Source: Synechococcus sp. CS-1330 (GTDB lineage: Bacteria > Cyanobacteriota > Cyanobacteriia > PCC-6307 > Cyanobiaceae). From it: a stretch of 39,121 nt of DNA. A model generated the notes under the pieces. The model saw only the letters and a list, made by a program, of their open reading frames with translations. It had not been told where the DNA came from and did not search any database. Both the position numbers and the translations under genes were made by a program. Shown one piece after another: positions 36,528 through 39,121 of this stretch (positions within the stretch are counted from its first letter, which is position 1; the number at the start of each line of letters is the position of its first letter). The stretch lies in contig JAHLYR010000064.1 in assembly GCA_025128025.1 (NCBI GenBank), positions 1 to 39,121 on the forward strand. Reading direction: 5' to 3'.

Positions 36528-37259
36528 TCAGGGTGGGGGCGGGGGATTAAGCGATTGCCATTCTTGGCGATCGAGGCGCCGCCAGCGCCCTTCGGGTAAT
36601 TCGCCCAGCTTCAGGGGGCCGATTGCCAGCCTCTGCAGATCGAGCACGGGGTGGCCAAGGGCCTCTGCGGTGCGCCGGATTTGACGGTTGCGTCCCTCCC
36701 CCATCCGCAGTTCGATTTCGGTTGCCTGGGGGCGCCTTTGAATCAGTACCAGCCCTACAGGTTGGCTGGCCTGGCCATCAAGGGGCACTCCGGCGGCCCA
36801 GCGCTCCAGCACCGAGTCCGTCGGTTGGCCCTTCACCCACACCCGGTAAGTCTTGCGGTGGCCGTAGCGGGGATGGGTGAGCCGCAGGGTTAGCTCCCCC
36901 TGGTTGCTGAGCAGCAGGGCGCCGCGGCTGTTGGCATCGAGCCGCCCCACCGGGTGGAGCCCGCTGCCGTGGCTCAGCTCCGCTGGCAGCAGGTCCAGCA
37001 CGGTGGTTCGTCCCTCGGGATCGTGGCAGCTGCAAACCACCCCCACCGGCTTGTTGAGCAACAGCAGCAGGGGTTGGGGCCGGGCCGCCAGGGGCTCTCC
37101 CCGCACGGTGATGCGATCGCGCTCGGGGTCAGCCCGATCGCCCAGCTGGACTACGGCACCATTTACCTGCACCAGGCCTTGAGCCAGCAGTTGCTCTGCC
37201 TGGCGCCGGGAGCAGAGCCCGGCGTTGGCCATCAGTTTTTGCAGCCGTTCAGAGGCCAT
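36528..37259 (-). CDS. RsuA/RluB-family rRNA pseudouridine synthase
   Basis: The 243-residue protein has an S4 RNA-binding domain (RLQKLMANAGLCSRRQAEQL, residues 5-24; LVQVNGAVVQLGDRAD) and the RluB/RsuA catalytic domain with LLLLLNKPVGVVCSCHDPEG, the catalytic-Asp motif GRLDANSRGALLLSNQGELT (Asp108), HPRYGHRKTYRVWVKG and EGRNRQIRRTAEALGHPV. It isomerises a uridine in ribosomal RNA; whether it is 23S (RluB-type) or 16S (RsuA-type) cannot be decided by eye. ATG 37259 is followed at once by the S4 domain, so the start is firm. The Pro-rich end is unusual but harmless. Confidence 0.92.
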   Translation of the reverse strand: MASERLQKLMANAGLCSRRQAEQLLAQGLVQVNGAVVQLGDRADPERDRITVRGEPLAARPQPLLLLLNKPVGVVCSCHDPEGRTTVLDLLPAELSHGSGLHPVGRLDANSRGALLLSNQGELTLRLTHPRYGHRKTYRVWVKGQPTDSVLERWAAGVPLDGQASQPVGLVLIQRRPQATEIELRMGEGRNRQIRRTAEALGHPVLDLQRLAIGPLKLGELPEGRWRRLDRQEWQSLNPPPPP

Positions 37260-37321
37260 GGTTTGCGAATCAATAGACTTGATTGGTTAATTCTTTATAG
37301 AAATAAGTGAAAGCAATGCCT

Positions 37322-38710
37322 TTATGTATTGGAAGTGAATCCTTCTAATGGTATTTGATGGCCGCCCATGGGTTTGTAGAAGCTTTTCCAGTCAATTTGG
37401 TAGCCGTAGCTATATATTTTGCCTAAGCTGCTTAAAATAGTTTCCCAGTTGTTTTTGCCATAGCGCAGGCTTGGCCACCAATTGCAGTTATTTATGTTAG
37501 CTAGGCCTGAATTTTTTAAGCATTGACGGCCTAGGCTCAAAAGGGTTGAACTTGCTCCCAGCTCTATAAAGTTGCGGACGCCATTGGTTGCCAACGTGTT
37601 CATTCCTTGTGCGAAGCGCACCGGGCTGGTTACGTGATCACACCAGTAGTCGCTACTGGCTATCTCTGGGCCTACCTGTCTGCCAGTTACATTGCTAACA
37701 AATGGACGAATGGGTTGCTGGAAATTAATTTGGCACAGAGTTTTTCTGAGTTCTGGCACTAGCGTCTTCATAGCAGCTGAATGGAATGCATGTGAAACCT
37801 CTAGTCTTTTGGTTTTGATGCTGCTGGAAGTTGTGTGGGCTAGGAGTTGATTGAGTGCCTCCTCTGGGCCTGATACCACAGTGTTGCTAGGACCATTGTA
37901 TGCAGCTATCACCAAGTTGTTGCAACCATCATTAGCATTAGAAATTAGCTCTCTGACCTCTTCCGGCTTAGCAACAAGCATGAGCATGCCGCCATTGCTG
38001 GGTTGAGACTGCATTAGTTTGCTCCGGACTGTCACGATTTTCAGGGCGTCCTCTAGGCTGAAAACTCCGGCCAGATAGGCAGCCATAATCTCGCCAGCGC
38101 TATGGCCGATTAAGAAGTCAGGCCGTATTCCCCAGCTGGACCACATTTCGCTTAATGCGTAGCCCAACACAAAAAGGGCTGGTTGGGTGAATGCTGTTTG
38201 TTTGATTAATTCAGCAGCTTGATCTGCCTGTCCTGTTTCGGGATACAACACAGAGGCAAGAGGACGATCTAGATGCGGATCAAGCAGTATTGAGCAGCGC
38301 TGGAAAGCCTCTCTAAATACGGAGTGAGTGGTGTAAAGAGAATGAGCCATGCCGACATACTGGGAGCCTTGTCCGGCAAGCATAAAAGCTAATTTTTCTT
38401 GTCTCGATGATGATTTGTTGCTGACTGCGCCGATGTCTGTTGCTGCATTTGGACCGCCTAATTTGTAAGCTTTTAATTGGTTTAGGATGCTTGGATAGTC
38501 TTTCCCTATGCATACAAGTCTATGTTTTAAGTGTTTGCTGTTGGTGTTGATTGTTTCGCAGATATTTCCTAGTCCTAGTTCCTCATTGGCTTCAATAAGC
38601 TTCGTCAATGTCGACGCTTGCTTTCTTAGCTCGAATTCTGTTCCGCCTGATACGCAAAGGAGATTTAACGGCGTCGAGTTTTCTGGCATTGAGCTCGGCG
38701 GCCTAGCCAT
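37322..38710 (-). CDS. Free-standing type I polyketide synthase acyltransferase (AT) unit
   Basis: About 462 residues from ATG 38710 (MARPPSSM; 38689 is an alternative). It contains only the AT part of a modular type I PKS: a KS-AT linker-like N terminus (LLCVSGGTEFELRKQ, HLKHRLVCIGKD), then the AT domain (KLAFMLAGQGSQYVGMAHSL, the nucleophile motif GHSAGEIMAAYLAG, and SHAFHSAAMK, whose HAFH favours malonyl-CoA), and the post-AT linker ending IDWKSFYKPMGGHQIPLEG. No ketosynthase, reductase or carrier domain is attached. Codon use is visibly AT-richer than all neighbours, indicating transfer. A trans-acting AT for another PKS or a relic of a larger gene are both possible. Its leader is shared with the sigma factor. 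Confidence 0.85.
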   Translation of the reverse strand: MARPPSSMPENSTPLNLLCVSGGTEFELRKQASTLTKLIEANEELGLGNICETINTNSKHLKHRLVCIGKDYPSILNQLKAYKLGGPNAATDIGAVSNKSSSRQEKLAFMLAGQGSQYVGMAHSLYTTHSVFREAFQRCSILLDPHLDRPLASVLYPETGQADQAAELIKQTAFTQPALFVLGYALSEMWSSWGIRPDFLIGHSAGEIMAAYLAGVFSLEDALKIVTVRSKLMQSQPSNGGMLMLVAKPEEVRELISNANDGCNNLVIAAYNGPSNTVVSGPEEALNQLLAHTTSSSIKTKRLEVSHAFHSAAMKTLVPELRKTLCQINFQQPIRPFVSNVTGRQVGPEIASSDYWCDHVTSPVRFAQGMNTLATNGVRNFIELGASSTLLSLGRQCLKNSGLANINNCNWWPSLRYGKNNWETILSSLGKIYSYGYQIDWKSFYKPMGGHQIPLEGFTSNT

Positions 38711-38792
38711 CAGAAAGTTTCGGACTCCTACCGTAAGGGTGTACAGGGGGCCTGGTGGGACCGCTTGCGGAGGCCAACCCAAAACGGTGGTA

Positions 38793-38816
38793 GGTTTGCG
38801 AAACCAAAGAGTTTCG
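38793..38816 (+). promoter_or_regulatory. Overlapping alternative inverted repeats before the sigma-factor gene
   Basis: GGTTT-GCG-AAACC (38793-38805) and CGAAAC-CAAAGA-GTTTCG (38799-38816) share the central GAAAC and cannot form together. They lie 15 to 38 bases before the sigma-factor ATG, in the 120-base divergent gap. They could be an operator palindrome or a leader hairpin; the function is a guess. Confidence 0.35.
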
Positions 38817-38830
38817 TAACCCGGCTCGCC

Positions 38831-39121
38831 ATGCCCGCCCTGTCCGCTCTTGGCTCCAGCACCAGTGCCGGTACTGCCTCGGCCCAATCAGGCGGCGACC
38901 TAGTGCGCAGCTACCTGCGGGACATCGGCCGAGTACCGCTGCTATCCCATGAGCAGGAGATCACGCTGGGCCGCCAGGTGCAGGAGCTGGTGGGTTTGGA
39001 GGAGTTGGAGCAGGAGTTGGAGGTGCAGCTGGGCAACAAGCCAAGCCAGGCGGAATTGGCCCAGGCTGCTGGGCTTAGTGCGCCCCTGCTTAAGAAGCGC
39101 TTGCAGGCGGGCCGTCGGGCC
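38831..39121 (+). CDS. Group 2 sigma-70 factor, N-terminal part (runs off the window)
   Basis: From ATG 38831, 97 codons are open to the right edge. After a short Ser/Ala-rich leader comes the region 1.2 motif DLVRSYLRDIGRVPLLSHEQ, then EITLGRQVQELVGLEELEQE, and region 1.2/2.1-type helices (KPSQAELAQAAGLSAPLLKK). This is how the non-essential SigB/C/D/E-type group 2 sigma factors of cyanobacteria begin; the group 1 SigA has a longer acidic N terminus. The member cannot be chosen without the rest. It is divergent from the PKS-type AT gene, with 120 bases between starts. Confidence 0.88.
   Translation, partial: MPALSALGSSTSAGTASAQSGGDLVRSYLRDIGRVPLLSHEQEITLGRQVQELVGLEELEQELEVQLGNKPSQAELAQAAGLSAPLLKKRLQAGRRA

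Follow-up and report, generated by a model that had tools for sequence, protein, structure and literature searches.

A stand-alone type I PKS acyltransferase gene with both modular linkers, probably acquired horizontally by a Synechococcus without a detected PKS partner

How does a type I PKS acyltransferase (AT), still carrying the linkers that flank it in a modular enzyme, come to stand alone between two housekeeping genes, and what could it do there? We address this for a gene in the window, which is the entire contig C10 (39,121 bases). We consider it probable, at roughly 0.6, that the gene encodes an intact malonyl-type AT that was acquired horizontally without a PKS partner, and that would be a spare transacylase if expressed and a passenger otherwise. 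The gene and its neighbors are as follows:

37322..38710, minus strand: stand-alone type I PKS acyltransferase gene (462 aa; KS-AT linker, AT and post-AT linker), delimited from the open reading frame, Pfam and NCBIfam, CurL and the limits of homology
36528..37259, minus strand: pseudouridine synthase gene (RsuA/RluB type), native left neighbor, from the open reading frame and congener matches; family read from sequence
38831..39121, plus strand: start of a sigma-70-type sigma-factor gene, native right neighbor, cut by the contig end; family read from sequence

The open frame runs from 38887 to 37322 on the minus strand (521 aa), and the ATG at 38710 is a plausible start, from which a 462-aa protein would be counted. 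An earlier, sequence-only reading had taken the gene as 37260-38830; this interval is the space from the pseudouridine synthase gene to the likely sigma-factor gene start. Pfam assigns the product to the AT family PF00698 (E = 2e-55; 189 bits against a cut-off of 32.7) and finds a CurL-like KS-AT linker above cut-off (PF22621, E = 1.2e-8), with no KS, DH, KR or ACP above cut-off. GQGSQ, GHSAGE, RSKLMQ and HAFHS are all found in the product. The protein therefore has the family match, the GHSxG and the HAFH of a type I PKS AT domain, and PF22621 and the alignment limits show linkers before and after it that are homologous to those of modular PKSs; no module containing KS and ACP surrounds it. 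HAFH goes with malonyl specificity, and this motif suggests that the window AT would prefer malonyl. The neighbors of the catalytic site differ from those of the sisters, since GHSAGE and RSKLMQ stand here where four aligned sister ATs have GHSVGE and RGRLMQ. The predicted model has a mean pLDDT of 91.3 and a pTM of 0.91; its first 10 residues and its final two are poor. Among solved structures, the CurL KS-AT didomain is the best relative, with a match (E = 1.1e-99) that spans residues 75-514 in the 521-aa frame. The model aligns with CurL over 449 columns (TM 0.87 by query length) and with the structure of the excised ZmaA AT (436 aa) at TM 0.91 by target length.

The borders of the gene coincide with domain borders. 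In the sister PKSs of genomes G095 and G168, the KS ends in GTNAHVVL and is followed by xDAPKPPPPP and then by the AT linker; the start of the window gene, MARPPSS, falls about where the sister KS ends, and its match to sister PKSs begins at residue 5 (tblastn) or residue 14 (blastp). At the 3' border these sisters read ALPGYPFQRQRYW, where the window gene reads PLEGFTSNT and then stops, and the homology to PKSs ends just short of the post-AT motif PFQRxRYW. Translations of the 120 bp upstream and of the 86 bp ending or following the gene contain no remnant of KS, DH or ACP. In-frame KS or ACP codons outside the gene, which the sequence-only reading had named as evidence against itself, are thus absent from these flanks, and its description of an AT with both linkers, GHSAGE and HAFH, free of flanking PKS domains, is confirmed by Pfam, motifs and flank translations. 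Because PKS homology starts and stops at domain borders and the flanks hold no KS or DH remnant, the gene reads as one AT unit, cut much as crystallographers cut their constructs. A random passenger fragment need not start or end at domain borders, so the placing of these cuts hints that selection favored a free enzyme, whether this preceded the transfer or followed it.

By sequence comparison, the window AT is PKS-derived and not a FabD. It scores 175.9 bits against the fabD equivalog TIGR00128 (NCBIfam), whose cut-off is 260.9, and is 31% identical to the only other PF00698 protein of the genome. The closest ATs, at 50 to 53% identity, belong to PKS genes of genus g47 in the same picocyanobacterial family, and the two nearest-PKS long frames that were scanned whole (L080 and L081) are KS-AT-DH-ER-KR-ACP by Pfam. 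In the tree, the window AT falls within a clade of 28 rows, all of the same family (support 100/96). Its end branch is long (0.79) and its exact position within the clade is unsure; the tree tool flags both the long branch and an unusual letter make-up. Clustering with ordinary FabD, another outcome that would have counted against excision, is contradicted by the TIGR00128 score and the 31% identity rather than by the tree, which was made without FabD. Homology, domain borders, tree and fold together support the earlier suggestion that the AT was cut out of a cis-AT megasynthase.

In the sampled genomes of the family, order and phylum, and among the best 80 of 537 loci from a wider scan, we saw no relative that has the linkers and stands alone. 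At E = 1e-60 or better, 28 of 400 family genomes had a match, including the window's own, and the other 31 places all lie inside open frames of at least 1253 codons. The order draw (399 genomes) largely overlaps the family set; it gave 25 genomes with a match, the window's own included, and 25 other places in frames of at least 1253 codons. Across the phylum, 14 of 386 genomes, again counting the window's own, had a match at E = 1e-100. Their 21 other places lie in frames of at least 923 codons, the shortest of which (923) begins 10 bases from a contig end. Note that in some genomes of these three scans the candidates exceeded those scored (for example, 4 of 92). The wider scan covered 84,980 species and yielded 537 passing loci; among the best 80, which were analyzed, none sits in a frame shorter than 900 codons and 67 have a KS-end motif in frame upstream, and at two (L110 and L124) the sequence ends too near the AT to judge the KS. 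Single-sequence scans of genome contigs and viral contigs, and an alignment scan of viral contigs, returned no relative. Phage records gave 18 distant matches, none covering 80% (the 15 listed are all below 31% identity), and 804 plasmid records had a match, all below 60% identity and at most 41% among the 15 matches listed. A DNA search with the insert in 16 genomes of the genus found no second copy and no donor; it returned short matches in PKS ATs and weak, chance-like ones. The donor was thus not found in our searches, whose best identity was 52 to 53%, and none of the titles retrieved from open-licence papers concerns a free-standing AT of this kind.

Despite this distance, the protein retains most positions that PKS ATs hold fixed. 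Constraint was counted over 47 PKS ATs as columns identical in at least 97%, one of 48 loci (L016) having been removed by the coverage/stop filter. The window AT keeps 57 of the 64 constrained columns while being at most 53% identical to any of the 47. Its seven changes are the most among 48 rows, and none falls in GQGSQ, GHSAGE, RSKLMQ or HAFHS; the remote rows L033, L032 and L031 have five, four and only one. This count indicates a lineage that was constrained along most of its branch, with perhaps a slight relaxation.

The base composition of the AT gene is foreign to the locus. Its GC is 0.467 (0.495, 0.436 and 0.471 by codon position), whereas the four neighboring genes have 0.637 to 0.678. 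The difference in composition that had been noted from the sequence is therefore confirmed, most clearly at third positions (0.471 versus 0.763 to 0.795), and the donor genome probably had a lower GC. Composition varies within the insert: the 75 bp directly upstream of the gene have a GC of 0.60, which is not low; the 62 bp downstream have 0.32. A second lower-GC stretch (GC 0.50 to 0.54) occupies 1-1924, at the other contig end, and contains a membrane-protein-like frame of 214 aa and an unknown frame of 324 aa, both judged from sequence.

The locus itself is empty in related genomes. The insertion and the repeats around it are:

37260..38785, no strand assigned: inserted segment, limits approximate (GC 0.468), missing in the congeners fetched
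37260..37269, plus strand: 10-bp direct repeat GGTTTGCGAA, new left copy, directly next to the pseudouridine synthase ATG
38793..38802, plus strand: right (native) copy of the 10-bp repeat, within one arm of the sigma-side inverted repeat
38793..38822, no strand assigned: inverted repeat GGTTTGCGAAAC-N6-GTTTCGTAACCC upstream of the sigma gene, native and retained here

The pseudouridine synthase gene was matched in 13 of 15 congeners, and the locus was compared in 10 of these 13 (G002, G010 and G011 were left out). In all 10, the spacer between the two flanking genes is 38 to 73 bp, against 1571 bp in the window; the 38-bp value, for G004, was obtained by extrapolation, because the sigma match there begins at residue 22. 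None of the 10 has an AT at the locus (no match better than E = 5). Comparison of the locus with related genomes, suggested earlier as a check, thus shows the AT insert to be missing from every congener fetched. Because the flanking genes lie so close together without an AT in all 10, the AT segment is most simply a lineage-specific insertion, with one insertion as the simplest account. Judged against nine empty sites, the insert replaces about 20 to 25 bp of native spacer beside the pseudouridine synthase start, and the native start of that gene may have lain three codons further upstream and been lost in the insertion.

The 10-bp repeat GGTTTGCGAA has two matches in the window against 0.08 expected, and in the nine empty sites a version of it occurs solely on the sigma side. 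We tried a simple target-site duplication and a Campbell integration at this repeat and rejected both. The native TGGTA beside the repeat occurs only on the right, and the locus has lost some of its native spacer, so the left copy is not explained as a plain duplication. The sigma-side inverted repeat is present, with changes, in the nine congener sites compared and has one site in the genome at up to two mismatches; with its arms taken as GGTTTRCGAAAC-N6-GTTTCGTAAACC (38793-38822), it looks like an operator. A promoter and terminator scan found nothing. As the AT gene lies upstream of the pseudouridine synthase gene on the same strand, it may be read from the former promoter side of that gene.

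We found no PKS for the window AT to load. The host genome is a 2.51-Mb draft of 72 contigs, 99.91% complete, with a reported contamination of 0.04%. PF00698 occurs at two places in it, the window AT and a protein on contig C39 that is presumably FabD. Searches of the draft show a single PF00109 ketosynthase and, adjoining it on contig C33, a single PF00550 carrier protein; the two are probably FabF and AcpP. Given this single adjacent pair, no PKS with AT-less modules, of the kind that a trans-AT system would have, was found in the 99.91% complete draft; being in 72 contigs, the draft may lack a small PKS-bearing plasmid. Within these limits a trans-AT role in the host cell is unlikely. The proposals that the AT could load a PKS elsewhere or serve a pigment or membrane-lipid pathway are not supported.

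AT-less genes do occur in sister clusters of related picocyanobacteria. At L081:1332-6284, L078:110-4831 and L082:2958-8078, AT-less KS-KR-ACP-thioester reductase genes adjoin AT-bearing PKS genes. In L081 and L078, the gene before the AT-bearing PKS encodes KS, linker, KR, ACP and a thioester-reductase-like domain (PF07993), with no AT (Pfam). The L081, L078 and L082 proteins have no GHSxG or HAFH and never align to the window AT better than E = 0.2; LPTTPFxRxRCW, which resembles the end of the post-AT linker, persists in all three, and the AT is reduced to a remnant between its linkers. Presumably the AT of the neighboring sister-cluster protein loads both PKS proteins, which makes the ATs of this clade plausible as in-trans enzymes; the window gene gains no partner thereby. 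Derivation of the window AT from such an AT-less gene was considered and rejected, the remnant linker failing to align to it. The passages of PMC11804610 consulted do not settle a pathway name for the sister clusters, and we assign none.

We therefore favor the following account. The AT unit of a picocyanobacterial type I PKS, both linkers kept, would have been acquired horizontally as a free-standing gene, as the foreign composition and the empty sites suggest, and inserted into the short spacer between the pseudouridine synthase and sigma-factor genes. Were the gene expressed, the active-site Ser of the enzyme would take up malonyl from malonyl-CoA, and the fatty-acid ACP, the sole carrier found, would receive it; the enzyme would then act on AcpP as a spare malonyl-CoA:ACP transacylase beside FabD. 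It is equally possible that the gene is a passenger without effect, and it probably brings the host no strong benefit.

The reading nearest to this account is that selection has fixed the gene as a second malonyl-CoA:ACP transacylase, additional malonyl loading being of use in fatty-acid synthesis. The cuts at domain borders, the intact core motifs, the 57 of 64 constrained columns kept and the presence of one carrier protein, presumably AcpP, that could serve as substrate all speak for selection. However, the genome already has a second PF00698 protein, presumably FabD, the gene is missing at this site in the 10 congeners fetched, and the constraint, which was counted along the entire branch, may stem from time inside a PKS; we regard selection as possible but on balance unlikely. 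Somewhat more doubtful is a broader idea, that a cis-AT became a free enzyme naturally and with domain-exact borders. In this view the linkers allow the AT to exist by itself and to spread among picocyanobacteria as one gene, and it would supply malonyl to a fatty-acid ACP or to an AT-less module of foreign origin.

A genuine trans-AT, loading an AT-less PKS module in the host or in a partner cell, is far less probable. ATs of this kind may already work across proteins in the sister clusters, whose PKS genes without an AT domain favor the idea, but here the only ketosynthase and carrier protein are adjacent to each other, and the AT gene stands alone between housekeeping genes. An assembly artefact or contamination, with a foreign piece misjoined near the contig end, is slightly less credible again. 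The insert does lie about 340 bp from that end and is foreign in composition; both flanks, however, are native neighbors that are adjacent in congeners, and reported contamination is 0.04%. Moreover, the contigs of G014, G009 and G005 also end within the sigma gene, so the break is plausibly due to that gene. We regard as hardly believable that the gene is the remnant of a PKS once at this locus and deleted down to its AT: PKS frames that contain related ATs occur in six of 15 congeners, but elsewhere in their genomes, no AT occurs at the locus in any of the 10 congeners fetched, the flanks contain no KS or DH remnant in any frame, and the GC is foreign. A horizontally acquired AT without a partner thus remains our preferred reading.

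If the enzyme is active, a cis-AT can leave its megasynthase near the borders chosen by crystallographers and persist as a gene of its own, a finding relevant to the origin of trans-AT systems. If the conversion from cis-AT to free enzyme is real, the gene would be a living intermediate on the road from cis-AT to trans-AT, other than by recruitment of a FabD-like enzyme. If the enzyme is inactive, the gene is simply a further foreign addition to a picocyanobacterial genome. In-trans loading can be tested with the AT-less KS-KR-ACP-reductase genes that adjoin related PKSs.

Among known systems, the window AT shares fold, linkers and catalytic motifs with the AT of CurL from the curacin PKS (37% identity over 449 columns) and with other type I cis-ATs that have a CurL-like linker; the CurL AT is fused to a KS in one protein, whereas the window AT has no KS, DH, KR or ACP. 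The single-domain trans-ATs DisD and PksD are, like the window gene, free-standing acyltransferases. They match the AT core only (about residues 162-458 of the 521-aa frame, E = 5.6e-33 to 9.1e-31) and lack the two linkers. These trans-ATs serve a PKS, whereas no PKS was found in the draft genome here. With FabD, the window AT would share its likely chemistry and AcpP as a possible substrate, but it differs in having linkers. In its borders (linker, AT, post-AT linker) the window AT resembles the ZmaA AT and other ATs excised for crystallography; those are laboratory-made, whereas the window AT is natural.
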